Assembly: GCA_030710605.1 (NCBI GenBank)
Contig: CP092879.1
Location: 42,401,578-42,465,577, forward strand
DNA length: 64,000 nucleotides
From: Cordylochernes scorpioides
Taxonomy: Eukaryota > Arthropoda > Arachnida > Pseudoscorpiones > Chernetidae
Direction of reading: 5' to 3'
Each line of letters starts with the position of its first letter. The first letter of the stretch is position 1. This document shows, piece by piece, positions 5,522 through 60,534 of the stretch. The notes under the pieces were generated by a model. It ran no database searches. It was not told the DNA's origin and was given only the letters and a program-made list of their open reading frames with translations. The translations under genes and the position numbers were made by a program.

Positions 5522-5648
5522 AAGAACCTGGTTGTCGTGCTGAGCCTCCCTGTCCACCGAGCTGCCACTGTGCTGAGGGGGTGGTAGATTGCAGGGACCG
5601 GGGACTGACCTCATTGCCGGACCATGTCCCCGAGACTACAACCGAGCT
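5522..5648 (+). CDS. slit: slit exon: cysteine-rich N-cap (LRRNT) of the second LRR domain
   Basis: A 127-nt exon between acceptor CAACAG (ending 5521) and donor GTAAGT (from 5649). The first 2 nt finish a codon and the last 2 nt open a Leu codon completed by the exon at 31,523. It reads EPGCRAEPPCPPSCHC, then AEGVVDCRDRGLTSLPDHVP, then ETTTEL. The cysteine pattern C-x3-C-x-C-x6-C is the classic LRR N-terminal cap, and the VDCR..GLT..P..P sequence is that of Slit domain 2. Slit is a secreted Robo ligand for axon and cell guidance, and its D2 domain carries the Robo-binding face. The following exons continue directly into the LRRs expected for Slit D2, which makes the call firm. Confidence 0.92.
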
Positions 5649-9579: not shown

Positions 9580-10265
9580 ATCTATTGTTGCATCTCTTTT
9601 TACCCCCTTTTTTCTATATTTTTTATAGATTGAAGATATAAAATGTAAACTACGAATTGACATTCTGTTTTGATTATATAAAAGGGCGTACCTGGATCTG
9701 TAAAGAAAAAACAAAACAATTTTTTTCTCTAAATATTTCGAGAGATTGCTCCCTCTTTATCAATTTATTGTCCTTTTTCTCTAAATATTTCGAGAATTTC
9801 GAGTTTTTTTTTTCACAGATCCAGGTATGCCCTTTTATATAATCTTAATTGATGGATCGCCTTTTGACTCAAACTATTCTGTTTGAGTTAGAATTTAGAT
9901 TTGTATATCACGTTTCAATTGCAGGTATAACAAAATTGATATTTCTTTCTTTAATGACACAATTGGTGGTGAATACAATGTGGGGATTATATATTAATAT
10001 ATAATGTATATTAGAGCATTAGCTCTCAGTCGCTTTTGTGATGGAACATTTTTCCATCTCTTCTTTTTTACCTTTTCTTGGTATCTTTTTATAGATTAAA
10101 GATAAAAAAGGAAACTGCCAATTGACAGTCAGAATTTAGATTTTCTATTGCAGGTATAACAATATAAATATTTTTCTTTAATGACACAATTGATGGTGAA
10201 TACAATGTGGAGATTAGAGATTAATATATAGGTTATACTAGAGCAATTGCATTTAGTTGCAAGAT
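9580..10265 (+). repeat. Tandem duplication of about 230 bp, first unit split by a MITE
   Basis: Unit 2 (about 10,040-10,265) aligns to two pieces of unit 1 (9580-9670 and 9885-10,030). Shared landmarks are TTTTTATAGATT, AATTGACA, AGAATTTAGATTT, GCAGGTATAACAA and GACACAATTG followed by GGTGAATACAATGTGG. The gap in unit 1 corresponds to the palindromic element at 9675-9844 and its flank, so that element arrived after, or independently of, the duplication. Confidence 0.65.
9675..9844. mobile_element. Palindromic MITE (family P), copy 1
   Basis: The arms TTATATAAAAGGGCGTACC and its near-complement at 9816-9844 enclose T-rich spacer DNA. The core CCTGGATCTGT(A)AAGAAA is shared with copies at about 22,945-23,068 and 38,590-38,700. 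All three are flanked on one side by a block reading GCCTTTTGACTCAA or its complement, so the mobile unit may extend past the palindrome. Confidence 0.65.
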
Positions 10266-14994: not shown

Positions 14995-15755
14995 TGTGAT
15001 ATCTTGGGACCTCTGGGACCAGTGTTACCTGATGCTAGACGAACCTCGATGTCAACTCTACCGTGCAGTCGTGGTGGAAGGCGACACAGCTGGGCCAAAG
15101 GTGAAATAAACAAACAGAGATTCCACTAAAAGCGTCTGACGTCAAGAAGGAATGGGATGAGGAGAGAGAGACTTTAGAGCAAGTGTTACCGTTGGGAGCC
15201 AAGCGAAGACTGGCAATTCTAGGTCCTTGGTTTAACACCACGACCTTGCTTCTTTCTGATTGGCTGACCTATTTAGGTGATTCTTTCCTAATTGGTGGGA
15301 CTTTTTCACGTGGCCGTAGGCTATTGGTTGACCTACTTAGGTGATGTCTTCTGGCGGCTTTCTTTGATAGAAAATCCGTCCTGTCTTGGCCCGGAAATTG
15401 GGCGTCACTCTTAGATTTTATGGTTTCCTCGATATCAGATACGCCCTGTCCTGTCAGGAAGTATTGACTTGTAAATTATTTATAGTTGGGCTGGTTTTAA
15501 GCCTCTTTTGCTAGGCCTTGCTTCGACTTCTGTCCTAAACCTGATTTGTTTTAACCTTAACTTTCTCCTGTCTCTCTCCATTCCTTCTATCTGTACAGTT
15601 GCAATACTTTATTAGGTTCTTACGCGGTACAGATTGATGTTAGTTGAGGTTTTCTATGTGCAGTACATAAGAAGTTATATACAGTCATGGGGTGGAACAT
15701 GTGGTAGTGGATATTTAGACTATTTACAACAATTCCATGGTCTTAAATCATCACA
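14995..15755 (-). repeat. LTR of the 14,995-20,425 element (left copy)
   Basis: 761 bp starting TGTGATATCTTGGGACC and ending TTAAATCATCACA. It appears identical to 19,665-20,425 along its whole length by eye (constant offset of 4670 bp, no difference noticed). This implies a recent insertion, since both LTRs are copied from one template at integration. Confidence 0.9.
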
Positions 15756-18700
15756 GATGGCCCCGGATGTGAGAGGGTTCATATGGAGGGATTTAAGAGA
15801 GCGGAATAGGAAGACTGTTATTAAGGAAGTAATTTTTTAAAAATTAATTAAAGTGAGTTGGTGTATAACATGGGGTTGATTTCTGTATATCCATAAGAGA
15901 TAATAAAGCATAAACAACTAATATTAAACATACAAGTAAAAATAAGAATATGAATAAAATATTTAATAGAGAACATATAATGATGATAGGTAAAAATATA
16001 AATGATAGGATGGGAAAATCATGATCTCTTCGTGATGGGCGTTAGAAAGGGTTGAGGGGTTAGTTATTACTTGGTTGAGGCAATGTCACTTTGACTCAAG
16101 TCCCAAACCATTTAATGTGCACGGCGCGGAAAACCTAGGCCATGTTTCACATGTAAATTTAAGGACCTAATAAAGTTACAGTACCACAATCGGAAAGTAA
16201 GATAAGGGTGATTGTTATGGGTTTTATTAATTAGTCGTTAAGACGTACGCATGCAGGATAAAGAGGGCGAAGATCAGTGACCAGAAATCAAAGTTTTAAT
16301 TAGAGTCGTCAGGGGCTTAGCGAGAAAAAGAGTAAAAAATAATAAAAAAAAATGTGCCAGCGTGTGGCATGAGAGTGCCCTGGAATAAAAAAAAATACAA
16401 TTTGCACGTATCCAAGCCAGAAGTTGGGATAAGGTAAGTCTGGGGGACGGTGTGTCAAGATTGTTAATTACGAAATCAAAGTAGGTCAAGTCTAGCCTGT
16501 GAAGGAGTTAAAAGTTCCTGCGGAAAAGGGTTAGTATTTATTAAGAAGTAACCTTTAAAGTGGTTGTTTAAGAGGTTATTGAAGATTGCCCTGTTTTTAG
16601 ATCATGATTTTTAGTTTGATTATAAAAGAATATATCATTGAGATATGAAATTGCGAAATTAAGGCTTTGCATATAGCGTTAAAGGATTTGAAAAATCGAA
16701 AATAGAATTGCGAAGTTAAATGCAAAGTAATCTTAAAAAAAATAAAAATAGTGATGATATGATACAAAGATTTACACACTACAGCAGTATATAAGGGGTA
16801 ATAGAAAGTGAAAATATTAAATGAAAAAAAAAAAATAATGAGCAATAATATACTCGATAGCATTGACATGGTAGCGGAAGGTGAAACAATGTAAATAATA
16901 TCTAATTTATAAAGTGAGAAAAAATATAAAATGATAAATGCAAATTAGTGATATAAACATGAAATATAAACTTGAGATTATTAGATACGAAAGATTAAAT
17001 ATAAAGTTGATTATAGAATAGAGTCATAAAGCAAAAGTAAATAAGTTTTGGTAAAGAAAAATAAAATAAAATGACACTAATCTAAACTGATTGGTGAGGT
17101 AAATAAAAACAATTATAAGAGCTATATAATGATTATATAAAGGATATTAAAATGAAAAATTTTAAAAAAATGTTCATCGAGAAGGAAGAGCAAGTAAGAT
17201 TATATATAGAAATTATATATCGTGAAAGAATGGAAAGTTGTAGGCCAAACGTAATGTACCTGTTTTTTTTTTTTTTTTTTAGGATGGGTAGAGAGAGCTT
17301 TAAATTGTCCTCGATTGATATCTTTGGTCTTGTTGGCCTAAGTTGTTCTAACTTATCGAATTTGTTTAAAGTTTGATGCGACTCGTGGATCACATTGTTT
17401 CTAACTGTGAAACTTACTGAGTCCTAATGTTGTCGATTTTTTGTTTAAACTTATGTGTGTGTGTGTGATTTTTGTAGGTAAAGTGTTGTCTTTGGCACGC
17501 ACTAATATTTAATTTAATAGGTGGCGAAAGTTCATTAGAGAACACGGGGTGGCGACGGATGTAACAAGATGTCGGCTGTTTGTTTGCTCGGGGGGGCGAG
17601 GGGGAGCGAAGCTATTTTTAATGCGATTCCGGATGTAGGTCAGAGGGGAGCGAGGGGGCTTGCTTTCTTTCAACTTATTGGAAGTTAATTCAAACTACGT
17701 TCGGAGATATTATTTCTATAATTGTAAACACAAAAGCGTTTTGATTTGTCACGTTTGGTGATAAGCGTTATGGGATTGATATAGGGAGATACAGAGGTTG
17801 AATTATTCCGTGTGTTCAAGCATTTGTTAGATTTGTGTTTGTATTTCGAAAATTCGGATATTGTATCTGTTGATATTAAATCGACTGGTTGTTGTGTTTC
17901 GATATTTTGTGGACTTAGTAAAAATGTTATTCATGGATATCGGGTTAGAATTGAATGAAATTGCGACTATCTACGTGGACAATGTGTGGTTAAATAAATG
18001 TGTCACAGGCGTGTTGAAGGCGTCTTTGGCCTGAAAATTGAAAGAGTTTAGTGGTATAGCGCTGTGACACGAAGCGAAAAAATTGTAAATGAAAAGGTAT
18101 CACGTGAAGTCTTTGTTTTGTACAAAATCTAACCTGTTACACTAAGAATAACAAATTTACTAAAGTCATGGTTGTTGGTTGTACGAACATATCGATAATT
18201 TTTATATTGTTAGTGGATATGACACGTTTAATGTGAGAAAAAAAAAAGATTGTGTGTGTTTAGTAGGGCGACGTGATGCAGCTTGTGTAGCTCGAAATTG
18301 GATTTGGGTGTTAAGTCGCGCATTAAAAATTGTCGTCAATTGGAAAAAGTGATGTGAGAGGGTGTTGTTTATTTTGTTGAGAGTGATTTGTCGATATTTA
18401 ACTATGCATGTAAAAGGAAGGAGTGTAGTTATGTGGGAAGTTAACGATTGGAATAGTTTTGGAAGGCTGTGACTTAGGTTATTTCTGTCTAAAGCTATGA
18501 AAGAAAAGGACATAGGGGCGTTGAAAATGGGATTAGGAACATTACAATAAGATTAAATAAGAATGTTGGAGTTCACCACGTGTGAGCAACCTGTTCCAGG
18601 AGGGAAAAATTTAGTAAATGGGACAGTTTTATTAACCTGTCCATGGGACACGTGTTGCTTGCACGAAGTGAATTGGTAAAAGGTAGTAGGTAGAGGCACA

Positions 18701-19664: not shown

Positions 19665-20425
19665 TGTGATATCTTGGGACCTCTGGGACCAGTGTTACCT
19701 GATGCTAGACGAACCTCGATGTCAACTCTACCGTGCAGTCGTGGTGGAAGGCGACACAGCTGGGCCAAAGGTGAAATAAACAAACAGAGATTCCACTAAA
19801 AGCGTCTGACGTCAAGAAGGAATGGGATGAGGAGAGAGAGACTTTAGAGCAAGTGTTACCGTTGGGAGCCAAGCGAAGACTGGCAATTCTAGGTCCTTGG
19901 TTTAACACCACGACCTTGCTTCTTTCTGATTGGCTGACCTATTTAGGTGATTCTTTCCTAATTGGTGGGACTTTTTCACGTGGCCGTAGGCTATTGGTTG
20001 ACCTACTTAGGTGATGTCTTCTGGCGGCTTTCTTTGATAGAAAATCCGTCCTGTCTTGGCCCGGAAATTGGGCGTCACTCTTAGATTTTATGGTTTCCTC
20101 GATATCAGATACGCCCTGTCCTGTCAGGAAGTATTGACTTGTAAATTATTTATAGTTGGGCTGGTTTTAAGCCTCTTTTGCTAGGCCTTGCTTCGACTTC
20201 TGTCCTAAACCTGATTTGTTTTAACCTTAACTTTCTCCTGTCTCTCTCCATTCCTTCTATCTGTACAGTTGCAATACTTTATTAGGTTCTTACGCGGTAC
20301 AGATTGATGTTAGTTGAGGTTTTCTATGTGCAGTACATAAGAAGTTATATACAGTCATGGGGTGGAACATGTGGTAGTGGATATTTAGACTATTTACAAC
20401 AATTCCATGGTCTTAAATCATCACA
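19665..20425 (-). repeat. LTR of the 14,995-20,425 element (right copy)
   Basis: 761 bp, indistinguishable by eye from the left copy. It is followed by TATA (20,426-20,429), which duplicates the four bases before the left LTR. If the element is in minus orientation this is the 5' LTR. Confidence 0.9.
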
Positions 20426-20429
20426 TATA

Positions 20430-25186: not shown

Positions 25187-25546
25187 TGTTCGGTACACTT
25201 TTTGAATGGTACACTATGACAGGTTCGTTTGGTATTGAAAGAATGATTCAATTAATCATCCTTGATATTTTAAATTTTATTCAGGATAAATATAGATATA
25301 AATATTATGTTACAAATTAATTTTAGTAATTAAAGAAGTTAAAAAATGTTCGATTGAAAAGGATGGATTGGGAAGGAAGTCAGTCCGTGTTGGCCGTCAG
25401 AATTCGAAGGGTCCACTCCCGTGCTTCCCACGTGACCGCCGCCGCCGCGCATGCGCGCCGACCGTGACGTCGCCACCGTCCGTGGCGGGTGGTGTTGGTT
25501 GAAAACTGTTCTTCTCTTCGTCGCGCGGGCGTGCCTTTCACTAACA
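25187..25546 (-). repeat. 3' LTR of the BEL/Pao element
   Basis: 360 bp, TGTTCGGTAC...CACTAACA as written on the plus strand. It contains a GC-rich block (GTGACCGCCGCCGCCGCGCA) unlike the AT-rich surroundings. It differs from the other LTR by one base in a C run near 25,430, with no other difference noticed. Confidence 0.9.
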
Positions 25547-28048: not shown

Positions 28049-28409
28049 TGTTCGGTACACTTTTTGAATGGTACACTATGACAGGTTCGTTTGGTATTGA
28101 AAGAATGATTCAATTAATCATCCTTGATATTTTAAATTTTATTCAGGATAAATATAGATATAAATATTATGTTACAAATTAATTTTAGTAATTAAAGAAG
28201 TTAAAAAATGTTCGATTGAAAAGGATGGATTGGGAAGGAAGTCAGTCCGTGTTGGCCGTCAGAATTCGAAGGGTCCACTCCCGTGCTTCCCCACGTGACC
28301 GCCGCCGCCGCGCATGCGCGCCGACCGTGACGTCGCCACCGTCCGTGGCGGGTGGTGTTGGTTGAAAACTGTTCTTCTCTTCGTCGCGCGGGCGTGCCTT
28401 TCACTAACA
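28049..28409 (-). repeat. 5' LTR of the BEL/Pao element
   Basis: 361 bp, one base longer than the 3' LTR (CCCC instead of CCC near 28,291). It is followed on the right by the target duplication AGTAT. The element's transcript would start in this copy and run leftwards. Confidence 0.9.
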
Positions 28410-41875: not shown

Positions 41876-41975
41876 NNNNNNNNNNNNNNNNNNNNNNNNN
41901 NNNNNNNNNNNNNNNNNNNNNNNNNNNNNNNNNNNNNNNNNNNNNNNNNNNNNNNNNNNNNNNNNNNNNNNNNNN
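41876..41975. other. Assembly gap (100 N)
   Basis: Exactly 100 consecutive N, the usual placeholder for a gap of unknown length. Sequence on the two sides may not be contiguous. It lies in slit intron B. Confidence 0.99.
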
Positions 41976-44130: not shown

Positions 44131-44803
44131 TATGAAAGAGCATTAAAGTAAGTTAGCCACACATATCAGAAAATTCATGAAATTATTTTTCAACAAAAAA
44201 ATAGTATTGTATCTTCTACCACTTATTTGTGTGACGTTGTAGCAAAAATCAATATAAGTGTGTTTCTGAATAAATGCTACTAATTATAAATACATAAATG
44301 ATATAATTCATATAATTAATAGTATCTGTGTACAAACAAGCACCTCTACGTATATTTAATTAAAATTAATTATACTATTATACAATTCAATTATCTACGC
44401 TTAGCGCACGTTGGAGTGAATTAAATTATACAATATATAGCGGGTGTTTATACATACACTATACAGAGGGCTCAGAGACTCTATAATTTATATAACCCTC
44501 TGGTACTCCTTAGCTAGCTCATTTCATATCTCTAATTGGATCCATTAACTATATATTCTATTTATCTCTATATTACCACTTGGATATTATATTCAGGGGA
44601 TTTTCCTTCACTATATATAATAATATGCAAATATTAAATGGAGTTACTACATATATATATTTATTTATGAGTGGCGTTGAGTTTGTTGTTTACATAAATA
44701 TGTTGTAATACCTTGAAAAAGGTTGGAGTTTAGCCACACAACTGAAATATTGGCAAATAAATTATATTTTGATCCAATATATGCTTTTTTAATTGATTAT
44801 ATA

Positions 44804-47135
44804 CAGGGTGATCCAAAAGTCCCGCACAACTTTAAAAATTAATAACTCCGCGAATATTTGCGCTAGAGCAATGCGGTAAACACCATTGTGTTCAGAATGC
44901 AATGGGATTTTTTATGGCAAATATTGAAAATTTCGAAATTGATTTTAGTTACAATTTCATTCCCTAGATGGCGCTGTACCAGAATCAGAAATTAAGCGGC
45001 CAAATTGTTTGATTAATTGAAAAATATAACTGATCGACACGTATTTTTCCTTTTTATATACCAGGAAAGAATCCTAATAATATCAAATCGTTAATTAATA
45101 AAGCACCATTTCGCCAAAAGTTAGAAGAAATGGTTAACGATTTTTAAATACAATCTGAGATATGTAAATTAGGTATATGCAAATTAAAACATGTAGCAAA
45201 AAATATTTATATTTTTGATAGAGTTTTGTCAAATATATTGAATGTTTGAAAAACATAGCTGAATTCAATACACGATTTTTTGAAATGTTAATATAGTACC
45301 AAAAATTATGATGGTACTACTAATAGGATTTCTTGCTATAAGGAATGTGTAATTTCTTGAATAATTGGCGACACTCGACTATTTAACTGGAAATTTGTCA
45401 TGATCCAACAAATGAAATATAGATGGGAGTGACAAAATACATTTGTCGTACTTTATTCCAAATATCCTATGGGCTTGTCAAATGTTATCATTGTTTATTA
45501 TACTGTACACGATTTTTAAAAATGTATCCCCTCAAAAATAAATATAATTTTTAAATCAACCATTTGCGTTGAAAAACGTGGTAGTAAATCATTTTGTACT
45601 ATTTTTTTTTGCCCAAAATTTCTAAAGGTGGGGGGTTACAGAGAATATTCCTTATGCTATTTCTTTTAATGAGCGAAAAGCGATAAATTAAACATAAGGG
45701 GTAAAATTGTGTGTACCAGTGTTATTCGAGAAGTTATAACACTTTGGTCTGCACGACATAATATAAGATGTGAGCAAATGACAAACAAACAAAAATTACT
45801 GTTCACAAATAAAAAAGAGACAAGATATGAGGACAGAATTTATTTACCCATAACCCAACACAAAGAGCTTCAAAATATTGGTAGATAATATAATACATGG
45901 CAGCTTATATAACACATGAGGTAACTTGTCTCTTGGAGGCCTTGTCTCTTGTATTAGATCACAATCCTTGCTCAATGTGGCGCCCTTCATTCTCAAACAC
46001 CGCCTGCAGACGATAGATAACATATTGCACAGCATCAAATAACATATCTGTTGAAATTGATGAAACGCGTGCCGCCTGATAGAAGCCTTCAACATGTGGT
46101 CAATGTGGTAGGCCGGCATCGATAAACACGCGACTTAATGTACCCCTATAGCCAAAAATCGCAAGGCGTCAAGTCTGGTGATCTTGAAGGCCACTGGTGT
46201 ATAAAGTGGCGACTTATCACACGATCTTCACCGAACGTATCCTTCAGCAATTGTTTGGCACCGCGGGAGATATGAGGAGGTCCTCCATCTTGCATGAATG
46301 TTATTTCGCTCAGTGCTTGTCTGTCCTGCAATATGGGGATAACCTTTTCTCTCAAAAGTTGAAAATAACGTTCACCAGTTACAGAAAGGGTTTTAAAAGT
46401 TCTTCCATTTATTTCTTCAAAGAAAAATGGCCCAATAATAAAAGAATAAGTGAACCCACACCAAACTGTAACTCTGGGCTGATGAAGTGGCATTTCTGTA
46501 AAAATCCTAGGGTTTTCTGTTGCCCAAATGCGGCTGTTTTGAGTGTTGACTTCTCCATTTAGAGAAAAGTGAGCTTCATCTGTCCACAGAACATTCGACA
46601 GCCAGTTTTCATCAATATCAATTTGCCGGAAAACCCATGCAGCAAATTCTTGACGCTTCTCAAAATCGCCGACTTTTAGCTCGTGAAATCTTTGAATTTT
46701 GTACGGGTATTTTTTAAGAAAAATTCTTAGAGCTCTCCAAACTGTTCCATACGAAATCCCCGTTTGTCGAGAAACTTGTCGAGCACTTACTTCTCCATAC
46801 GTGGATAACGTTTCAATAGCTTCAACATTCTGCGAAACCGTAACAGCCACTGACTTGCGTGTCGATGGTCTTCCACTCCGAGGTTTTGCTTCCAGAGATC
46901 CAGTCTTCTCAAAATATTTTATCATTCTCCTTAGAGAGTAGCAACTCATGGGTCCTTTACCTCTTCGAATACCTTTAAATTTACGAAACGCTCGTAAAGC
47001 TTCAGTGGAAGATTCTGAATTGCAATAATAAAATTTCACCAAGAGTGATTTATGCTGTAGTGACGGCATCCCAGAGTAAAATAAATGATCGGGGATAGTT
47101 GAATTTTTCAAATGAATTAAAATAAACATAATCGA
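44804..47135 (-). mobile_element. Mariner-like element, left inverted copy (5' end missing)
   Basis: From the outward terminus CAGGGTGATCC at 44,804, about 1 kb of non-coding DNA (44,804-45,900) precedes a transposase gene read towards the terminus (45,905-47,069). Similarity to the right copy fades at about 47,130. A non-coding 3' region of 1 kb is long for a mariner, whose whole length is usually near 1.3 kb. Confidence 0.8.
45905..47069 (-). pseudogene. Mariner-like transposase, left copy, one nonsense change plus frameshift
   Basis: The start is taken at the ATG at 47,069 (MPSLQHKSLLVKFYYCNSE). Helix-turn-helix regions include LRRMIKYFEKTGSLEAKPRS and VSRQTGISYGTVWRALR. Catalytic motifs are LWTDEAHFSLNGE, FMQDGGPPHISRG and RSPDLTPCDFWL. 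I count 42 residues between the second and third Asp, longer than the 34 of classical mariners. A TAG at about 46,146-46,148 replaces a Trp codon present in the right copy, directly after the third catalytic motif, and a frameshift follows. The C-terminal segment (KASIRRHAFHQFQQICYL) continues in another frame to about 45,905. Confidence 0.85.
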
Positions 47136-47211
47136 TATATGGCTTCTGAAGCCAACTGTGCGGACGTGTTTGGCATCGCTTGTCTCGTACCGCGAATGGG
47201 ATTTAACTCTG

Positions 47212-47609
47212 CATATCACAATATAGTATTAAAAGTAACTCCTAAAGTTTACCAAATTTTAAGAAAAATGGGTAATGAGATATACACCGATTTTGAGCGA
47301 TGTTCTACACAAGACAGAATATTTGTAAGACAATGCCAAAATTGTTTTGAATTTAATCCGAACCATAAAACAAAAGACTGCCAAAACATTAAAATATGTA
47401 AAATATGCGGTGTACAGGGTAGCCACAACTGTATTGAAGCGCCAAATTGTCACAATTTCTCTAAGCACCCTAAATTTAAAAACCTTTCTACAAACCATAA
47501 ATCAAATTCAAGTGAATGCCCGATTTACAAATCGCAAATAGACAAAATTATCCAAAGGACACAATATTCACAAATATACGAGGGAAATGATGTAGCAAAT
47601 ACAATTTAA
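47212..47609 (+). pseudogene. LINE C ORF1 (Gag-like) C-terminal part
   Basis: Open frame with VTPKVYQILRKMGNEIYTDF, then zinc-knuckle-like motifs CQNCFEFNPNHKTKDC and CKICGVQGSHNC, then a third C-x-H segment. This is the nucleic-acid-binding ORF1 end typical of Jockey-like LINEs. The N-terminal half is missing; the residues from the start of the open frame at 47,139 to about 47,210 look unrelated and are probably read-through from flanking DNA. Confidence 0.7.
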
Positions 47610-47710
47610 AGCATTAATCTTAAATAGATTAATATCCTATATGATTGAAAATGTGAGATGTATTCAACAAAATGTAAGAAAAAGTTTTACTGCGATAAGT
47701 AAACTACAGG

Positions 47711-47829
47711 CCAGCACTAGAGATGACCCACCTGACAAGGACGAGTGGGTAACACCCTCGTTTCCAGACAGTCATGAACCGGGATCGAATCCCGCGTTAA
47801 CATTTTGTTTGATATGTGAATATCCTTCA
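47711..47829 (+). repeat. S2 SINE segment embedded in the LINE C endonuclease frame
   Basis: Matches the SINE at 36,383-36,567 from the tRNA-like head into the body: ACGAGTGGGTAACACCCTCG, CAGTCATGAACCGGGAT, CGAATCCCGCGTTAAC and ATTTTGTTTGATATGTGAA. It lies between two conserved endonuclease motifs that are normally closer together. The reading frame passes straight through without a stop, adding about 40 residues (…DDPPDKDEWVTPSFPDS…). I see no flanking duplication. Confidence 0.75.
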
Positions 47830-49094
47830 CCTGACATTCTTTTGATTCAAGAACCATATGTTTTACATGAAAATGTTATTTATGATATGGACTCTCAAAT
47901 TATATGTTCGAATAAAACTGGGGAAAAATATACGACAACTATAATTTTAAATAAAAATATAAAGTTCAGCAAAGAGGAAAAATTCACAAATTATTTTTGT
48001 ACAACAATATCTATTTCTACAGTTAAAGCAAAATTAATTATTTCTAATTTATACATTCATCCGAATACTTATAAACCTGTTCATCAAACATTCATTAGAG
48101 ATCTGCTCAAAACGTATATAAATCAACCTGTAATCCTTTGCGGTGATTTTAATTCAAGACATACTATATGGTTTGACAATGTTATAAACTCTAATGGATA
48201 TAGATTACAACCTATTATAGACGAATGTAACCTCTTTATACATAACCTGAAAAAACACCCACGTGCCGCGGAGAGTAAGTATAATTGATCTCACAATCTC
48301 GAATAAACACTCACTAAGTTTAATAAACAACTGGCATACCTCTGATTTGACTAATATTTCCGACCATTTTGCTGTTAAATTTTATATCAGGTTAAAGAAT
48401 GGTCATTTATTCAATAATCAAATTTCCACTTTGAAAAAAATGCGAATTGGACAAATTTTTCTAATAACATATCATTACAAGATACAAAAAACTGGGAATT
48501 GATATAAGCAGAGTGAAAGATGAGGAAGACATTGATGGGATAGTGAACGCACTCATGAATTTATTGAGAGAAGCAGCATATAAATCTTCGAAGGTTAAAT
48601 CCCCCATTAATAAACAAGTTTCCAGAATTGACTGGTGGACTAATGAACAGGAAATAATAAAAAATCATTTTCATTATATTAGAAACTAGTATTATCGTCA
48701 TAAAACAATCAGTTACAATACATTTAAGTTGGCAAGAAACAAATACACCAATGCAACTGGCGAAACGTTATTGAAGAAAATTACACAGATAATCCATTTG
48801 GTAATGCTTATAAGTTCTTCAATAAATTAAGATCCTCAAATGTAAAGAATGGAATTCCCATAATTGACAATTCACCAGAATATCTAAAAGAGCAAACAAT
48901 GACCATATTAATGGACGATTTAATTCCTGAAGACGATCCTAATTTGGACAATTTTCAACAACAAATAATTAGAAATTTTAAGCCACGAATGAATAATCCA
49001 AGCATAATTATTATCGAAGTAGAAGAAATAATGAATATCATTTCTAATTCTGATGTTTAAAAAGCTCCAGGTTTAGACAACATAAGTAACAATA

Positions 49095-49344
49095 TTGTAG
49101 CGTAGAAATCAAGCCTTGAAATATCCTAAGATATAAAATAATTTATTGATGACGTCACAACGACGAGTCGACAATTATTAACAAGTCAGCAAAACTATCT
49201 ACAGCTAGGGAATCTTAAGCAAGCAAGCAAAGAAATATTTTAAAGATGATTTCACAAATACAGAGTAATATATTTTTTTATAATCTGTTGAGTATTTTCA
49301 TTGAATTATATTAAATTAAATAATAAAATATTTCTTCGCCACAA
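49095..49344. mobile_element. TA-flanked MITE inserted in LINE C
   Basis: 250 bp with terminal inverted repeats TTGTAGCGTAGAAAT and ATTTCTTCGCCACAA (two mismatches), flanked by TA at 49,093-49,094 and 49,345-49,346. Leaving it out restores the LINE reading frame across the junction (GLDNISNN followed by MIKCAYPK), which confirms both boundaries. It belongs to the Tc1/mariner or another TA-duplicating group and has no coding capacity. Confidence 0.85.
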
Positions 49345-52300
49345 TATGATCAAATGTGCTTACCCAAAAATTAAGCATATGTTATGCAAACTATTTAATA
49401 AATGTATTCAAAAAGGGGTATTATCCGGAAAAATGGAAAATAGCAGCTCTAAAGATAATTCCTAAACCACATAAATCTAATTTAGAATCAACAAAAAGTT
49501 ATCGACCTATCTCATTGATTTCAAATCTTTCAAAAATTTTCGAAAAAAATATGAAAAATCGAATTTATGAATTTATGATAGTAATAATCTTTTGAGCTCC
49601 AGATAACATGGATTTGTCAAATAAAAATCAACGACAACGTGCTTATCGTGATTTATCGATCGAGGATCAACAGCGATACGACTTGAATATTCCAGATATA
49701 ATTGAAAATTTGATTAAATATAAAATTACACTATTGAAGAAAAATACTAACCAAACATTTCAAAGTTTCTTTCCCGCTAATATTCCGAATTATTTTCGGG
49801 CAAATTTCCACAACTCTCAATTTATTACAAATCACGGAAATTTTAGAAGATTTTTAAAATTCATCAAAGCAGTGCAGGATTCAAGATGCTTCTGTGAATG
49901 TGAGGAACAAATTTCTATTCATCTGCTGCTAAATTGCCCCGTCTTCCAAGAATATATAGAGAGAAATAAGGATAACCCAGGCCCCTGGAGCGCAAGAAAC
50001 GCCAACTGCCCGGGCTGTCAAGCTAACTAGTAGAAACAAGTTACTCTAGATTATATTTATATAGAGCCAATTGCAGAGCCGAACCAGCTGGTCAGGAAGT
50101 TCCATGCCTGCAGAGAACACGGGAGTCCAGCCAACGAGACTGGGTCGAAGGAGGTCTTCCCAAGCAGCAGAGCTGTCTTCATTCTGTGTTGCATGAAAGC
50201 AGGGCATCTGAATAGAATGTGGTCCACAGTCTGTTGTTCCTCCATACAATGTGGGCAAGATGGGTCTTCCCCAGGACGCCAGAGAACCAAGTCTGCCCGA
50301 ACATGGCCATGTCCTGTAAGTAAGGTGGTGGTGACTTCTCCAGGACAGACCTTAGGGAGGAATTGGAGCAGCCGGTCTGGAGTATGGGCTATTCTCCTCA
50401 GGTGTCTGTTGTAGTGGTCCTGGCAATAAACCTCCGTCCATGCGTCTAGGGCTGCCGCGCGTGAGTGGTTACGGGCCAGGCTTCTAGGCAGAATGGAAAA
50501 TGATGGCTCTAAGATCAAAACGGCCGCGTTCTTAGCAGCTCTGTCTGCTCTTTCCTTTCCGTCGATGCCGCAGTGTCCCGGCACCCAACACAGATTTACG
50601 TTTTGGTTGGTGTTCAGTACGAGAATAATCTTAGCTACTAATGTCGATCGAACTGGACCTGACGTACATATGGCTGACAGAGCTGAACTGCAGTCCGACG
50701 CGATAGTGATCGCATTTCTTGCATAACCTTCCTTCACCAGGCGGACCGCCCAGCGGATTGCCAGAAGTTCAGCCTGGAAGGCTGTGCAGTCGGGATGGAG
50801 CCGTAAGAGAACGGGCTGCTGATCTTCTGATGAGGGAACAATTGTAGCGCCCACCCCAGCCTCATTTTTTGATCTGTCTGTGAATATTATAGGTGTTGTT
50901 ATCTCCTCGATGTTTAGACTGAAAGACAATTGACGTCTATCTGGAGGGTATGGCAAAGAAGCAGGGCCTGGTCTCTCTAGATTCAAAATTTCCTTCATTG
51001 ATTTCCTTCAGGAACGCCGTACGAGACCTAACAATAATATCGAAAGGAGGGCTGCCGGTTATGGAGATGGCTGAGACTGTAGGTGTGTAAGGACCTCCTC
51101 TCAGTACACGTTTCGCAAAATTGCAGTGAAGGCTCCTAAGTTGCCTAATGCCTTCGCTGGAGAGAGCACGGCCTCCCCATGCTGACGCTCCGTCCAGCTG
51201 AAAAGAAGATTCCAAATTTACCCTGTATGGTGTGGGTGAGTCGTGGGATTATTGATCTGCATCTACGTGTGATCTTGCGTAGGTGGGCGACAAATCCGCG
51301 GGTCTGGTAAAACTCCACTTCTAAGATTGTGACGGTCTTCTTGATGTTTAAAGGTTGACCAAGGACTCTAAGCCCTGTCTCGGAGTTGGGGTGGACAATA
51401 CGCCATTGGAACAGGCAAGCTTGAGTCTTAATGGGGTTTATATTAAGACCATTTATCGTGCACCAAGATGTCAACCTCTCCAAGAAGGTGTTAGTGGCAG
51501 AGACCGGCAGGCGACTACGAACCTGAGTCATAAGGGTGAAGTCGTCCGCGTAAGCTATTAATCGGCTATCTATGATGGAGGGAAGGGTGAAGATGGTCCG
51601 AGCAACTATGTTCCACAGGAAAGGACTTAGCGCTGAACCCTGGGGAGTGCCGAGTTGGGAGGACGTACATTCTGTTGCTGTCCAAGCTGAGTAAGAAACC
51701 GTCCGGTCTTCCAAAAGCTTTTTACTAAACAGGTAATAGACTCTGAACAATTTAGACGTTCAAGATTTTGTTTGATTGCCTGCCTCCAAAAAGTGTCGAA
51801 GGCCTTACTGATGTCCGAGCTGATGACAAGAGTTTTCCTCCAGTGAGCTTGTCTTTCTTCAATTAATTGAGTGATACTCGCCAGTGCATCTTCCGCTGAA
51901 CGACCATTTACGGTACCCAATACGGTTTTGTATTGATCTTCAAAGAACCATCCATGACGATCCGCGAGCCTCTGAAGTCGGGCCAGGATACATCTCTCAA
52001 ATACTTTGGCCATAGTGTTCAATAAAGTAATAGGTCTGTATTTCTCCAGCTGACTGGTGGCTGAATTGGAGGATTTAGACAGAAGTATGAGGCGGCCTTC
52101 TTTCCATTGACGGGGGAAGTGGCCCCTACGAAGGCATTTGGTGAACAATTCGGCCAGCAGGAATTGCAAGGAAGGGCCGTCCAGGTCTAGGCATTTTGAA
52201 CCAAGACCGTCAGGGCCCGGGGCTTTCCTTTTTCCACAGCGATGAATGGCTCGCAAAACTTCCCAGGGTTTGAATTCAGGTTCGTCTGAGTGAGCAGAAA

Positions 52301-52796
52301 TTGCATTCCTTTGCGGGTGAGGTCTGGTGTCAGGTAGGAAAAAGTGATTTAACATGGTCTGGAAAGTCTCATGAGGATTGTAAAGAGAGCCGTTATCATG
52401 TTTGAGAAGTGGCGGACCTCGGGGGGAGCCGCGGCCCCGGGCGATAAATCGATGTATGTCACTCCAGTATGCGGATGAAACCTCCTTGCAGAGATTAAAC
52501 CAGTATTTACTTTTAGCTTTCCGTATAGCCGCCTTCAGTCGATTATGGCACGCTCGGTATAAACCGCGGAAGAAATTTCTAATAGAACACCGGACTTTCT
52601 GACTATAACGGCGGAGGGAGATAAACAACCTTCTGATCCGACTCAGTTCGGGGGTCCACCACGGCTTTGACGGTCTTGTAGTATTGGAGCGTCTCCCCAT
52701 GGAAGAGTCACAAGCTGATTGCAGGATGGAAGTCAGAAGGAGGACCACGCTGTCAATATCTTCTGGGCTAGAGGCCTCGTTTAATAAGGTAGTTAC

Positions 52797-54699
52797 ACCA
52801 TCAAATTATAGGGGCATTGCCCTTATAAGCAACTTGTCAAAACATTTTACATCCATTTTAAAAAATAGACTAAGTAATTGGATTGAAAATAGAAAACTCA
52901 TAGCGGAAAACCAGGCAGGATTCAGAAAGGGCTACTCGTGCAAAGACCATATCTTCACGCTTACGTCACTAATTCAAATGACATTAAACCGCAAAAGGAG
53001 AAAACTTTACACATTCTTTGTTGATCTTAAAAAGCGTTTGATACAGTTCCACATCTACTATTATGGAGAAAGCTTGCGCTTGTTGGTTTAAGTGGGCGAT
53101 TTATCAAACTTATACAGAACTGTATAAAGAATCTAAAGTTTTACGAAGGAGCCTCTTTTATAAAAGAGGCTCCTTCGTAAAACTTTAGATTCGTTATACA
53201 ATTATACTTTTTATACGGAGTTTACCTGTAGAAACAGAACTACTATGCTCAAATGATGGCAGCGGTCAGATGGAGCGGCTCTTTTACAGAATTTATCAAA
53301 ATACAATCAGGTGTTCTTCAGGGTGAACCTCTTTCACCGTATTTATTTATTATTTTCAATAACAATCTGGTTGCTACGCTGGATGATTCTGACCTGCCAG
53401 GTATATACTTACCGGGCCATGGAACTATACACCTGCTCCTGTTCGCGGATGATATAGTCTTCCGTGGTGAATACAAGATAAATATCCAAATAAAGATTAA
53501 TTTAATAAAAAATATTTTGAGGAAAATAGTTTAACTCTGAACCAATTCCAGTCTAAAATCGTAGCGTTTCGAAATGGAGGCCGCTTGGCTAGATCTGACG
53601 TTTGGTTTTGGGGCCAACAACCTTTGACAGTTACCTCAAAATATACGTATCTTGGCTACCCCTTAACAATCAAGAATCCAACTCCTTACGTGGCGCAGCA
53701 CTTTAAAAGCAAAGCATTGATTGCTACAAACGCAGTATGGAGAATACTATCTAAGTCAAGAACCATATCGTTCGGAGCAGTGATGAAATTACTTGACTCC
53801 ATAGTTTTATCCACGTTATTATACTCGGCCCCACTGTGGGCGACGAATCAGATAGGAGTTGTAAACCAGATCCAGGATATTTTTCTTACGGCGATTTCTT
53901 GACCTTCGCAAATTTACACCCCGGGCTATATCTTACGAACAGAAACCGAAAGGATGTCCCTTGAATTAAACATTACGAAATTGATTCTAAAGTTCTAGAT
54001 ACGGATTTTAAAAATGGACAGGACAAGATTACCTTATGTTTGCTTGTTCCAGCTCTAGGAAGTTTCAATTTTGGGAAAAGCGGGAAACAACTTTATTTAT
54101 AACCTGAATAACATCATTGACTCTTGGGGTTTTTCTTTTCTTAAGAACTGTGAAGATTATATGGTTTTGCGAGGAGAAATGCCTAGAATAGTTCAAACCA
54201 CAGTGGACCAGCTACTCCAATTTGACCGAGCTAAGATACAAAACTCAACTCATTGTATTCACTATCAATCTCTAAGTAGCTCCTTTATGACGGAGGACTA
54301 CTTACTATCAAACCTCTCTTTGAAAATAGCCCGTCAAAGGATTCTATGGCTATTTTCCCCCGAGGATATCACGGGATTTTGGAACAGCGACCCTTTAAAT
54401 TTCTACTTCTGCAATGCTGGCATCCAAAAAATTTGGTTCATTACCTATTCCATTGCCCATTCCTACAGGAAAAGAGACTGGAAATTCGCGAAATTTCGGG
54501 GCTAACTCACTATAATGAACAACATGTATATACAATTTTTACTACTCTCCAGCTGGATAAAACATTTGTTTATAAATATTTAAAATTTTTCAAGGCGATT
54601 GACAAAATGGGGGAAGAAGTGCTCAACTCCCCAGACAACGGCTGTTTGCTCCACCTCCCCTCTAAATTGCTTTTCCTCCTCACTCATGTACATATATAA
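52797..54699 (+). pseudogene. LINE B reverse transcriptase, truncated and frameshifted
   Basis: Begins in RT motif 1 (GIALISNLSKHFTSILKNRL) and continues ENQAGFRKGYSCKDHIF and LYTFFVDLKK, then is interrupted by a palindrome at 53,121-53,200. The catalytic region resumes with VLQGEPLSPYLFIIF and LLLFADDIVF (about 53,305-53,465). A C-terminal region without RNase H follows (YTYLGYPLTIKNP; Cys/His-rich end around FLFHCPFLQEKR near 54,440-54,480). Frameshifts occur at about 53,035, 53,535, 53,900 and 54,470. I cannot assign the clade; lack of RNase H and the GTT tail separate it from LINE A. Confidence 0.8.
53121..53200. repeat. Near-perfect palindrome with 40-nt arms and no loop
   Basis: Centred between 53,160 and 53,161. 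The first 32 bases outward pair perfectly, then one mismatch, then seven more pairs. The arm contains AAAGTTTTACGAAGGAGCCT. It lies inside LINE B and duplicates coding sequence in inverted form, breaking the reverse transcriptase. It may come from a fold-back or template switch during reverse transcription, or from an assembly or cloning artefact. Confidence 0.95.
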
Positions 54700-55484
54700 C
54701 CTCTTAGGGGGATCCCCTTGTAAGACAATAGTGTATTAATAAAGGTTTTTGTTGTTGTTGTTGTAATAAGGTAGTTACCTGGTGGAGAGAAGAGTTGAGG
54801 AAGGATTTAAAGGTCTGTTCTTTACATGAGGATTCAACCCAGGAGCAGTTTGTCTCGTTATTGACCATGTCTAGGAATGTAGTCCAGATAGGTATATGGT
54901 CAGTGAAGGCCATCTCATCTAATAAACCTCTAGTGACATGGATAGCCAGTGAGCTGGATGCCAGAGTTACATCTATAGAAGAAGATAAAGGCCCATTTGA
55001 CCAGGTCGAGTCCACAGGAGGTCCCAAGAAATGAAGATCATTGAAGCTGGCGAACTTTTCAAGATTAGCACCCCTGAAGTCCAACCTCGCACCGATGCCC
55101 CAGGTAGGAGAGTGGGCGTTAGTGTCCATACCCAGGATCACTGGAAGAGAGGCCCGTCTTATCGTATCTTCCAGAAGAGGGATGAAATCATCGGCAGCTC
55201 TAAGGCCGTGCCAGTAGGCCGAGTGCACCACGATGATGCTCTGCTCTAGACATATGGCTATGGAGGCTATGGCGGTGTCTGGGGAGGTTAGAGGGATGGG
55301 ATGAAGGTTGCTAAGTGCCACAATTCCCGAGGGGATGTAGGCGCCTGGGACAAAAAAAATGCCTGAAACCCACGTGTGGGCCAGAAGAAGTTAGTTGAGA
55401 GTTCTTGCAGGAGCACGATGTCGGCCTGTGTCGAATTTGCCAAATTTGCAATTTCAATAATGACAGTTGGTGATTTTCTAGCTT

Positions 55485-56659
55485 TCACCTGCAGGACACG
55501 CAATGGCCTAGACATTGTTTCTTGTTCGGGCTGTTATCTCTTTTACAAAGGGACAGATAGATAATGTGGCAAAGTGGTTGATGGGAGCTCCAGATTTTTT
55601 TTCTGCAGCGGCAGCAACGGCTTTGGCTTGGCTCGACCGAGCATCGGATGCCTTCATGCTCTGCAGAGCCGCAGCGATAGCAGATTGGATGGGCAGCTGG
55701 ACAGGCAGAAGCGCGGTGGCCGAAGTCACAGCAACGGAAGCATTGCTTTAAAGTATGACTGCGCTCATACCTGTGCACTAGACCCGCCACAGGAATACGT
55801 CCATGTTGACCGAGGATTTCGGCGACTTGGTTGTCCACTTCGATGAACACTGTACTAGTGCTGTGTGCCGCATTATTCGATCGATGGACTACCCTGATTT
55901 CACGCTTTTCCAGGAGTGACTGCACGGAGTGGTTGGAGCGGAAGCTCTCGCATATCTCGTCGTCCCGCACCTCCCCGTCCACTCTGAAGAGGCAGTATCT
56001 TGGTAGGATAACCGGGCACTCGGGGCAGCTTAGGCCCGTTGGCAGGGAGGTCAGCCCAGTGGCCAGCTACTTTGCCATTTGGGTTGTTTTGGGGTGGAAA
56101 ACCACCTCGCCGCTGGTGTTGATGGACGCCACCACGTGTTTTGATGACACTAGGGAAGGATGAATCTTTTGAATTTCCCTCAAAAATTCCCTTGGGTTGC
56201 TTTGGGGTTAGCCGACCTGACGACGACATGCGATTCGAAGGAAGGAGCCAGATTCACAAATGTGGATTTCGCTTTGGGTTTCGGAGGTGCAGGCTTTACC
56301 GGCTTGTCTTTCTCTGCCACTACCGAGGCGAAAGAGGTGGAGGGAATCGGGACGTTGGCTGTGGGATTGGGTTTTCCTAGACTGGCTCCCTTGAAGGCGT
56401 CCTTAAGAAGAAGTTCTGCCTCTTGGACGAGAGTCAGTATCAGTCCTTTGGTGGCCATCTGTATTTTTTCGGGGGAGTCCAGGCTGGTGTCGGCAATGAT
56501 CGCTTCGAAGGTTTGGCACTCAAAGTTGAACAAGTTCGCCGTGCTGTTGAATTTAAATTGGTAATGGGAAGACGGGAGGAGGTCTTCGTCCTCAGAACGC
56601 GGCCGCTTGTTGGCCTGCTGACTTCCTCCACCACCGCCATCATACTGGTTCAGCTCCAT
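55485..56659 (-). pseudogene. LINE A ORF1 (Gag-like) with three zinc knuckles
   Basis: Starts at 56,659 (MELNQYDGGGGGSQQANKRP), with a charged N-terminal region and a P/K-rich linker (KPVKPAPPKPKAKSTF). One frameshift occurs near 56,190. The C-terminal half (55,485-55,982) has the knuckles CFRCCDFGHRASAC, CYRCGSAEHEGIRC and CCRCRKK. This is the ORF1 architecture of I/R1-group LINEs, an RNA-binding protein that packages the element's RNA. The end overlaps the ORF2 start at 55,515. Confidence 0.8.
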
Positions 56660-56799
56660 AAATAAAAACTATCAAAAAACAAATCTACTCCAAAGAGAGT
56701 AAAAAAGGCAGACCAGACAAAGAACATTATTCCGTTAACGAGATGAGGTGTGTATGGTTATTGGTTCGGCCAACAACAAATATCCAATTTATATACACA

Positions 56800-59109
56800 T
56801 ATATTTTTACATAATGAGGTTTTGAAAAATGCAAATAATCTTCATCTATTTACATGCACAACAATTTATTTTACCATCACTACAGCATAAATCACTCTTG
56901 GTGAAATTTTTTTATTGCAATTCAGAATCTGCCACCGAAGCTTTACAAGCGTTTCGTACCTTTAAAGGTATTCGAAGCGGTAAAGGACCCATGAGTTGCT
57001 ACTTTCTAAGGCGAATGATAAAAACTTTGGAGAAGACTGGATCTCTGGAAGCAAAATCTCGGAGTGGAAGACCATCGACATGCAAGTCAGGGGTTGCTAC
57101 GGTTTCGCAGAATGTTGAAGCTATTGAAACGTTATCCACGTATGGAGAAGTAAGTGCTCGACAAACGGGGATTTGGTATGGAACAGTTTGGAGAGCACTA
57201 AGAATTTTTCTTAAAAAATACCCGTAAAAAAATTCAAAGACTTCACGAGCTAAAAGTCGGCGATTTTGAGAAGCGTCAAGAATTCGCTTCATGGGTTCTC
57301 CGGCAAATTAATATTGATGAAAACTGGCTGTTGAATGTTCTGTGGACAGATGAAGCTCAATTTACTCTGAACGGAGAAGTTAACACTCAAAACAGCCGCA
57401 TTTGGGCAACAGAAAACCCTAGGAATTTTACAGAAATGTCACTTCATCAGCCCAGAGTTATAGTTTGGTGTGGGTTCACTTCTTCTTTTATTATTGGGCC
57501 ATTTTTCTTTGAAGAAATAAATGGAAGAACTTTTAAAACCGTTTCTGTAACTGGTGAACGTTATGTTCAACTTTTGAGAGAAAAGGTTATCCCCATATTG
57601 CAGGACAGACAAGCACTGAGCGAAATAACATTCATGCAAGATGGAGGACCTCCTCATATCTCCCGCGGTGCCAAACAATTGCTGAAGGATACGTTCGGTG
57701 AAGATCGTGTGATAAGTCGCCACTTTATACACCAGTGGCCTTCAAGATCACCAGACTTGACGCCTTGCGATTTTTGGATATGGGGGTACATTAAGTCGCG
57801 TGTTTATCGATGCCGGCCTACCACATTGGCCATGTTGAAGGCTTCTTTCAGGCGGCACGCGTTTCATCAATTTCAACAGATATGTTATTTGATGCTGTGC
57901 AATATGTCATCTATCGTCTGCAGGCGGTGTTTGAGAATGAAGGTCGCCACATTGAACAAGGATTCTGACCTAATACAAGAGAGAAGGCAGTTACCTCATG
58001 TGTTATAAAAGCTTCCATGTATTATATTATCTACCAATGTTTTGCAGCTCTTTGTGTTGGGTTATGGGTAAATAAATTCTGTCCTCATATCTTGTCTCTT
58101 TTTTATTTGTGAAAAGTAATTTTTGTTTGTTTGTCATTTGCTCACATCTTATATTATGTCGTGCAGACCAAAGGGTTATAACTTCTCGAATAACACTGTA
58201 CACACAATTTTACCCCTTATGTTTAATTTATCGCTTTTCGCTCATTAAAAGAAATAGCATAAGGAATATTCTCTGTAACACCCCACCTTTAGAAATTTTG
58301 GGCAAAAAAATAATACAAAATGATTTTACTACCACGTTTTTCAACGCAAATGGTTGATTTAAAAATTATATTTATTTGAGGGGATACATTTTTAAAAATC
58401 GTGTACAGTATAATAAACAATGATAACATTTGACAAGCCCATAGGATATTTGGAATAAAGTACGACAAATGTATTTTGTCACTCCCATCTATATTTCATT
58501 TGTTGGATCACATGACAAATTTCCAGTTAAATAGTCGAGTGTCGCCAATTATTCAAGAAATTACACATTCCTTATAGCAAGAAATCCTATTAGTAGTACC
58601 ATCATAATTTTTGGTACTATATTAACATTTCAAAAAATCGTGTATTGAATTCAGCTATGTTTTTCAAACATTCAATATGTTTGACAAAACTCTATCAAAA
58701 ATATAAATATATTTTGCTACATGTTTTAATTTGCATATACCTATTTTACATATCTCAGATTGTATTTAAAAATCGTTAACCATTTCTTCTAACTTTTGGC
58801 GAAATGGTGCTTTATTAATTAACGATTTGATATTATTAGGATTCTTTCCTGGTATATAAAAAGGAAAAATACGTGTCGATCAGTTATACTTTTCAATTAA
58901 TCAAACAATTTGGCCGCTTAATTTCTGATTCTGGTACAGCGCCATCTAGGGAATGAAATTGTAACTAAAATCAATTTCGAAATTTTCAATATTTGCCATA
59001 AAAAATCCCATTGCATTCTGAACACAATGGTGTTTACCGCATTGCTCTAGCGCAAATATTCGCGGAGTTATTAATTTTTAAAGTTGTGCGGGACTTTTGG
59101 ATCACCCTG
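56800..59109 (+). mobile_element. Mariner-like element, right inverted copy (5' end missing)
   Basis: Same layout as the left copy but on the plus strand: the transposase gene (56,870-58,008), about 1.1 kb of non-coding DNA, then the outward terminus ending at 59,109. Nearly all of it is the reverse complement of 44,804-47,130 with scattered differences. No CAGGGTGATCC terminus is found near 56,700-56,870. Confidence 0.8.
56870..58008 (+). pseudogene. Mariner-like transposase, right copy, stop plus frameshift
   Basis: Collinear with the left copy. LQHKSLLVKFFYCNSESATE opens the conserved part. The frame breaks near 57,225, where a Tyr codon has become TAA and one base is added in an A run. 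It resumes at 57,331 with VLWTDEAQFTLNGE, FMQDGGPPHISRG and RSPDLTPCDFWIWGYIKSRV and ends at 58,008. The part lost in the left copy after CDFW is intact here. The two copies therefore carry different disabling changes. Confidence 0.85.
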
Positions 59110-59129
59110 TATATATTTATATTAAAAAT

Positions 59130-59224: not shown

Positions 59225-60534
59225 CAAGGTATGTCCCATAAGTTCCCGGACTGGGTCCATAAAAAAATAAATAAATGAAAAATGTAAATGAATTTGACTG
59301 TTTATTATAGAAAAAATATCTGGCTACACGGTGGTACCAATATCGAGTCGGTACTTGCGCGCGCGCCAAGGTTATTCTAATTTATTTAAAGGTCACACCT
59401 AGCGCTGCGGCGATTTTACGATGGAACAAAAATTGAAGCAGAGGATTTGCATAGAATATTGTGTGAAACTTCAAATATCAGCAACCGAAACTTTTGAAAT
59501 GCTTAATAAAGCATTCCCCAATGACGCCCCAAAGAGAACAACTGTTTTTGAATGGCATTCTAGATTTAAAGCTGGCAGAATTTCCATTGAAGATGATCCT
59601 CGTCAAGGACGCCCAAAATTTCAAAGGACTGATGAAAATGTGCAAAAAATCACCAATTTGATAAAAGAAAATCCTCGAACCACTTTGCTGGAGCTAGAGC
59701 AAGACACAGGTATCTCTAAAACAACGATTGGAAGGATCGTAACCGAAGATTTGAAGCTCAAAAAGACTCCTGCAAAATTCATCCCAAGATTCCTCACCAA
59801 TGAGCAAAAACTGTGTCGGCTTGCAACCTGTGAGGACATGATGGAAATGACAAGAACGGATCCAGAATGGAAAGACAAGATAATCACAGGCGACGAGACA
59901 TGGGTCTATGGCTATGACCCTGAAACCAAACCTCAATCTGCCAAGTGGAGAGGTTAGGGTAGGCCTAGACCCAAAAAATCCAGAAACAAGGTGTTGCTGG
60001 TCGCTTTTTCGGATAACAAGGGCATTGTTCATCACGAGTATCTTCCTGCAGGCCAAACAGTTATTAAGGAAATGTATTTGGGCATTCTTCGCCGTCTAAG
60101 GGAAGCGATTCGAAAAAAAAGGCCAGAAAAATGGACTAATGGTGGCTGGATCCTACACCATGACAATGCTCGCCCTCACACAGCGCACTTGATGACTAGC
60201 TTTTTGGCGAAAAACGGGACACAAATCCTACTTCAACCACTCTATTTCCCAGACATCGCACCAAATGACTTTTTCCTGTTCCCCAAACTTAAAGCAGTTC
60301 TAAAAGGAAGACATTTTGACACCAGGGATGACATAATAGAAAAATCGCCGTTAGCATTGAAGAGCATTCCAAAAGAGGCTTATAAAAACTGTTTCGACAA
60401 TTGGGAGAAACGATGGCGCTGGTGCGTTGAAGCAAGGGGGGATTACTTTGAAAAGTTAAAAAAAAAAAAAATTTTTAAAATCTTACCTTTATTTTTGTAT
60501 GGACCCAGTCCGGGAACTTATGGGACATACCTTG
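59225..60534 (+). mobile_element. mariner element, nearly intact
   Basis: 1310 bp flanked by TA, with terminal inverted repeats beginning CAAGGTATGTCCCATAAG at the left and its exact complement at the right (at least 30 bp matching). It carries a single transposase gene. It is the best-preserved DNA transposon in the window and belongs to a different family from the other mariners here. Confidence 0.92.
59421..60470 (+). pseudogene. mariner transposase (DD34D) with one in-frame stop
   Basis: About 350 codons starting MEQKLKQRICIEYCVKLQIS. The HTH region includes TTVFEWHSRFKAGRISIEDD and GISKTTIGRIV. Catalytic motifs are ITGDETWVYGYDPE, LHHDNARPHTAHL and FPDIAPNDFFLF, with 34 residues between the second and third Asp, as in true mariners. 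The frame is interrupted by one TAG at 59,955-59,957 in the WRG-GRPRPKKS linker. The C-terminus runs into an A13 run (about 60,460) and the normal stop appears lost, so the enzyme is not functional as it stands. Confidence 0.9.

Follow-up and report, generated by a model that had tools for sequence, protein, structure and literature searches.

We examined 64,000 nucleotides of the pseudoscorpion Cordylochernes scorpioides (GenBank assembly GCA_030710605.1, contig CP092879.1, positions 42,401,578 to 42,465,577; this whole stretch is "the window", and coordinates are counted from its first letter). We propose that positions 44804-59109 are a single Tc1/mariner-type transposon that is laden with long interspersed nuclear elements (LINEs) and is mobilised by its outer mariner ends. 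On the basis of sequence comparisons within the window and across the genome, we consider this very probable. The original prediction for this region was of two near-identical mariner-like copies, facing outward with TA-flanked termini, that might form a composite transposon carrying LINE cargo. The description of the copies is borne out by exact termini and by 95.8% identity between the two arms. The features of the unit are:

44802-44803: left TA target dinucleotide (in the window and in all 20 sampled copies, TA precedes CAGGGTGATCC)
44804-47066, + strand: left arm, the 3' half of a mariner with long terminal inverted repeats (TIRs); 95.8% identical to the right arm
46149-47072, - strand: left-arm transposase, window copy (open for 307 amino acids from Met; DUF4817, 8.2e-7)
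47063-47137, - strand: mariner 5' remnant, from upstream of the transposase start to roughly the beginning of LINE_A
47138-50030 (limits approximate), + strand: LINE_A remnant (open reading frames; Exo_endo_phos_2, 1.9e-10)
50033-50078: joint of LINE_A and LINE_B, 3' end to 3' end (a recurrent 46-mer)
50060-56668, - strand: LINE_B remnant, interrupted by LINE_C (RVT_1, 4e-14; RNase_H, 5.1e-9)
52609-54699 (limits approximate), + strand: LINE_C fragment nested in LINE_B (RVT_1, 4.4e-7; open reading frames)
56761-56863: 103 bp that separate LINE_B from the right arm (with matches in the 11-kb elements described below)
56874-59109, - strand: right arm, the 3' half of another mariner copy, whose transposase is dead (from its alignment to the left arm)
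59110-59111: right TA target dinucleotide (from the survey of ends and from empty paralogues of another copy)

The terminal motif CAGGGTGATCC is found at 44804-44814 (+ strand) and 59099-59109 (- strand) and nowhere else in the window (chance expectation 0.02). When the window is compared to itself, the arms are the top-scoring inverted pair. They align across 2,267 columns (44804-47066 with 59109-56874; in unit coordinates, where 1 is 44804, this is 1-2263 with 14306-12071). Divergence between the arms is uneven, with 7 mismatches in 988 columns in the outer part and 53 in 1,243 columns in the inner part. From the outside in, the left arm consists of the outer TIR (about 416 bp), about 0.7 kb of non-coding sequence, and the transposase gene on the - strand. 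In each arm, the transposase gene reads outward and starts close to the inner end of the arm. As predicted, the inner (5') terminus is absent from both arms, but their breakpoints are different, whereas the original prediction had placed them at about the same point: upstream of the transposase start, the left arm retains about 75 bp (unit positions 2260-2334 align with 577-501 of the 11-kb element), while by our reading the right arm retains about 10 bp and has lost about 10 bp that included the start codon. A 100-base gap in the assembly (41876-41975) is not within the unit.

The cargo between the arms is 9.8 kb long and contains at least three LINE remnants. We scanned seven open reading frames from the cargo against Pfam: domains of endonuclease, reverse transcriptase, or RNase H type are present in five, and two gag-like frames have no match. 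LINE_A has a zinc-knuckle-like frame (the zinc knuckle is our reading; this first frame has no match in Pfam), an endonuclease, and a partial reverse transcriptase, and its 5' end is head-to-head with the left-arm transposase. LINE_B has gag-like frames, a reverse transcriptase, RNase H, and a frame that we read as the endonuclease region, and its 5' end faces the right-arm transposase. The RVT_1 match in LINE_C (53232-53531) is barely over the cut-off. The 103-bp segment at 56761-56863 also adjoins a Gypsy-like insert in the 11-kb elements, and it could be a remnant of a long terminal repeat (LTR) or mariner sequence.

To count junctions, joints, and termini, we searched the genome for patterns with up to three mismatches, with reversed patterns as controls. 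The original prediction would have suffered if no arm-cargo junction occurred a second time; the left junction has 467 copies and the right junction has 461. The 46-mer at the joint of LINE_A and LINE_B has 544 copies, and a 39-mer from the reverse transcriptase of LINE_B has 476. (The reversed pattern gave 0 matches in each of these four cases.) Since the copy number of LINE_B at this threshold is close to that of the composite, LINE_B in this genome is probably mostly cargo of the composite.

The two junctions also travel together, as expected for a composite transposon that moves its cargo. Among the exact matches listed, 80 of 95 left junctions have a convergent right junction within 40 kb (same-strand control: 1). 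The spacing in these 80 listed pairs is 9.6-9.7 kb in 27, 4,369-4,372 bp in 7, 6,127-6,149 bp in 6, and 2,991-3,011 bp in 4; other spacings run up to 22 kb. Two of the 4.37-kb derivatives, from contigs C1 and C2, are 99.6% identical and have the deletion 48361|53903 in common, so the deleted forms have moved since that deletion arose. Because the junctions recur together, we reject inverted duplication and two unrelated insertions, which the original prediction had listed as alternatives, as descriptions of the present state. Two insertions may still describe the founder, as two LINE-interrupted mariners that fused.

Comparisons of individual copies agree with these counts. We scored at least 40 matches to the left arm (the window's own included), with 97-100% identity, on 19 of the 24 contigs. 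In 30 left-arm loci, the sequence continues past the supposed inner breakpoint into the start of LINE_A; the first 15 bases of LINE_A are exact in 28 of these and have small changes in the other two (L013 and L018). Stretches of 10 kb of the unit from three copies on other contigs are 98.0-98.6% identical to the window and cover the left arm, LINE_A, LINE_B, and LINE_C (one of them without 53560-55132). We also surveyed a 701-bp stretch at the expected position of the right end in 20 copies. In 8 of the 20, as in the window, the right end is present at 14.2-14.3 kb from the left end, and all 8 have TA on both sides.

The transposase is open for 368 amino acids in 20 of the 30 left-arm loci that were ranked as most similar to the window's arm. 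The intact protein has a DUF4817 helix-turn-helix domain (1.3e-7) and is similar to the Sleeping Beauty transposase (phmmer, 2e-9). The acidic residues are presumably D164, D261, and D304; the last two are separated by 42 residues. By our reading, D304 aligns with a glutamate of the Sleeping Beauty transposase that we take to be catalytic. The TA at both ends and this predicted DDE/D transposase, which is related to known members, place the unit in Tc1/mariner. In a protein search, the best 128 matches are 96-100% identical, and the commonest open frame is 421 amino acids from stop to stop; some of these matches have one or two internal stops. None of the seven right arms that we read has an intact transposase frame: all seven have the same 12-bp deletion and the same 1-bp insertion (a frameshift), and six have lost the start codon (the seventh, L069, is unreadable there in the alignment). 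Given these lesions in every right arm, the founder had at most one working gene.

We propose that both ends of the unit are 3' ends of a long-TIR mariner and that transposase from the left arm of intact copies would recognise these two outer ends. The whole 14.3 kb would move into TA, and the dead LINEs would be copied as passengers. Copy number could rise through cut-and-paste with gap repair or through replication timing. The broken copy in the window and the 11-kb branch would move in trans. As for the founder, the simplest history is that two neighbouring, inverted, LINE-interrupted mariners were fused by deletion, with the loss of both 5' ends.

The founder might instead have arisen by inverted duplication of one arm, through fold-back repair at the long TIRs, and we think that this is unlikely but deserves some weight. 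Strand invasion could be primed by the TIRs of the parent family, which are about 435 bp long and present at each end. However, the two fusion points differ: upstream of the transposase start, the cargo joins the arm at about 75 bp on the LINE_A side and at about 10-20 bp on the right. There are also 21 fixed differences between the inner arms, present in every one of seven copies. These seven copies (the window and six others) are those in which we compared both arms, and all 21 of the fixed differences lie at alignment position 1738 or beyond.

Closer to the ends, the arms appear to exchange sequence, judging from the variation among copies. Ten variable sites have the same pattern in the left and right arms of each copy, and all of them are at alignment positions 191-1384, so this would involve the outer 1.4 kb. 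Five of these sites mark a sublineage (the window and L010), and the other five mark a single copy. Another ten left/right differences, at 1071-1253, are fixed in six of the seven copies; the right arm of L027 has the left-arm state at all ten, which looks like a conversion tract. A large number of other sites vary in a single arm. The outer 330 bp of nine copies give a similar picture. The sharing between arms may be an artefact of assembly or polishing between near-identical arms. If it is conversion, and if conversion is stronger towards the ends, then this would explain why the arms look young on the outside and old on the inside. Unequal arm ages had been put forward as a point against a composite; the inner arms have indeed diverged, but conversion of the outer arms would account for the difference.

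Could the 14.3-kb block have been spread by recombination, as a segmental duplication, rather than by its mariner ends? The block is large and its copies are highly identical, as expected for segmental duplication. However, identity ends at TA|CAGGG in all 30 loci shown, and the flanks beyond this point differ: among the 198-bp flanks of these loci, only 4 pairs of loci match (82-89% identity), because those loci lie in shared repeat families. The scatter of the scored copies across most of the contigs and an empty site also argue against it. If the flanks of the copy L027/L059 are joined, they align with repeats in the window that lack the unit. In a genome-wide search, which we did for L027 only, the first 52 of 84 matches to these joined flanks cross the TA (query bases 85-86), at 87-94% identity; these matches are not all independent, as several come from tandem neighbours. 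The empty site is paralogous, not allelic. We compared nine such joined-flank constructs to the fetched sequences: L027 had three spanning matches, L026 had one weak match at its own locus, and the other seven had no spanning match among those sequences. The search for an empty site thus succeeded for one copy of the nine flank pairs. Overall, we consider segmental duplication to be very improbable. We give even less credence to the idea that a LINE moves the unit by retrotransposition with the mariner arms as passengers: LINE_A does adjoin the transposase in the left-arm loci that we fetched, but this idea is rejected by the mariner TIRs at both ends with TA on either side, and LINE_B is inverted relative to LINE_A and is interrupted by LINE_C.

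Several observations weigh against a mobile LINE-laden transposon. The right end was absent from the 701-bp stretch in 12 of the 20 sampled copies. Among the exact matches listed, 15 of 95 left junctions and 20 of 100 right junctions are unpaired. Some flanks are shared repeat families, so not every flank is unique DNA. The window's own left-arm transposase, which is one of the 30 ranked loci, stops at 307 amino acids, so the window copy is not autonomous. Finally, constraint on the transposase seems to be weak: across the 190 pairs of the 20 intact left-arm frames, the mean nonsynonymous divergence (dN) is 0.0057 and the mean synonymous divergence (dS) is 0.0093, and an intact left arm compared with seven dead relatives gives dN/dS values of 0.70-0.90.

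The unit belongs to a much larger family. The 37-base terminus with its TA has 15,131 copies (control 0). Among the first 100 exact termini listed, 42 adjacent pairs are convergent (5.4-18.3 kb apart), 4 are divergent, and 2 are on the same strand. Random placement gives 1.5 convergent pairs on average, with a maximum of 6 in 2,000 trials, so we reject chance pairing. By the junctions listed, 9 of the 42 convergent pairs are of the window's type, 11 are of a second type, and 22 have no assigned type. The second type (L062+L063) is 11,027 bp long, with one transposase arm, a short other end, and TIRs of about 435 bp. A LINE (Exo_endo_phos_2, 5.3e-19), bounded by 11-bp direct repeats, sits at the start of its transposase. 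In L062, where the LINE adjoins the ATG of the transposase with the 11-bp direct repeat, the transposase frame therefore extends backwards into LINE sequence. The 11-kb element also has an integrase fragment (rve, 3.3e-6, which is under Pfam's cut-off), and its relative L065 has an RT_RNaseH domain (5.2e-25), so this branch contains Gypsy-like remains. Its junction has 2,612 copies in the genome. The transposase of the 11-kb branch looks broken: in 150 matches to its first 120 amino acids, the open frame is at most 202 amino acids in 149 and is 344 amino acids in one, and the three sequenced members have common indels.

Mariners without cargo also persist. With exact anchors, we found 133 uninterrupted mariner 5' regions in the genome. 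L076 is a complete cargo-free element of 2.80 kb with TA at both ends; L074 is also cargo-free and 2.80 kb, with a mutated left end; and the inverted ends of both are about 420-445 bp. Each arm of the unit is the 3' half of such a 2.8-kb element. None of the five cargo-free elements that we fetched, a small sample of the 133, has an open transposase (the longest run from the start is 150 amino acids). Over the longer alignments, these five differ from one another by 9-16%, and the cargo-free elements are old. Within the sampled loci, intact transposase frames were found only in the 14.3-kb composite; the sample was ranked by similarity to the window's arm, and an intact lineage outside of it, or an intact cargo-free copy, is possible.

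In three LINE-mariner fusions (LINE_A, LINE_B, and the LINE of the 11-kb branch), the 5' end of the LINE is within about 200 bp of the transposase start and points away from the transposase. It is conceivable, although we doubt it, that insertion of a LINE amounted to promoter capture that kept the mariner alive, and that the LINE-driven composite took over from its cargo-free ancestor as the autonomous lineage and drives thousands of large relatives in trans. If so, class I and class II elements would be mutually dependent in this genome.

We compared the unit to known systems as these are described in the relevant parts of the cited papers. The Medea M1 locus of Tribolium castaneum is associated with a 21-kb composite Tc1 element that contains foreign DNA (PMC3144190). 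Like the unit, this is a large composite of the Tc1 group carrying foreign DNA, and its insertion is linked to a drive phenotype (PMC3144190); in contrast, the unit has several hundred copies, LINE cargo, and families of internally deleted offspring. The LTIR-like DD40-41D elements of aphids (Apismar5; Lsra) have TIRs of 460-466 bp and are 2.3-2.4 kb long, and their transposases have 351-370 amino acids and a third D (PMC5490172). The TIRs of the cargo-free elements (about 420-445 bp) are close to these (about 460 bp), and the composite's transposase, at 368 amino acids, is also similar. However, the unit has LINE cargo, and it has 42 residues between the second and third D instead of 40-41; given this spacing, we do not assign the unit to the DD40-41D group.

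In bacterial composite transposons, two copies of an element bracket and mobilise unrelated DNA, with transposase from one or both copies (PMC9587614). The unit is similar in that unrelated DNA lies between two copies of one element and the entire structure appears to move by its outer ends. It differs from that definition because the flanking elements are incomplete: both have lost the inner end, and an arm by itself should therefore be immobile. KolobokP, a eukaryotic DNA transposon, also resembles a composite and has long copies at its termini, but its terminal repeats are direct, it belongs to another superfamily, and its transposase is internal (PMC9587614). In a review of giant eukaryotic transposons, "mariner" and "Tc1" are absent from the main text (PMC6431247). 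A literature search that covered few subscription journals found no precedent for mariners with LINE cargo. Composite Tc1 elements were already known, from Medea; the highly amplified, LINE-carrying form is new.

The window has other repeats as well. Just beyond the right end of the unit, an open frame at 59403-59957 has the helix-turn-helix domain of the Mos1 transposase (HTH_48, 1.8e-9), and this is a different mariner. Direct repeats of 764 bp at 14995-15758 and 19665-20428 are 99.9% identical and start 4.7 kb apart; this LTR-like pair suggests a very young retrotransposon. LTR-like direct repeats of 361 bp at 25187-25546 and 28049-28409 are 99.7% identical, with 250-bp repeats nearby at 89%. 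A tandem array at 10260-13039 spans 2.8 kb with a period of about 160 bp. There is also a leucine-rich repeat N-terminal domain at 5497-5649 on the + strand (LRRNT, 3.6e-10), which is presumably Slit-like; simple motif scans of the window did not recognise any further Slit exons.

If the 15,131 termini are counted as some 7,500 elements with a length of about 11 kb, then we estimate that the relatives of this unit could make up about 3% of the genome in total. Our results point to a DNA transposon that has multiplied retrotransposons that are unable to move themselves, to hundreds of copies, so that class I elements would be copied by a class II transposon. These copies would also be a natural data set on the size limit for movement of a mariner, on how long inverted arms continue to exchange sequence, and on how a transposase can outlive its original element.

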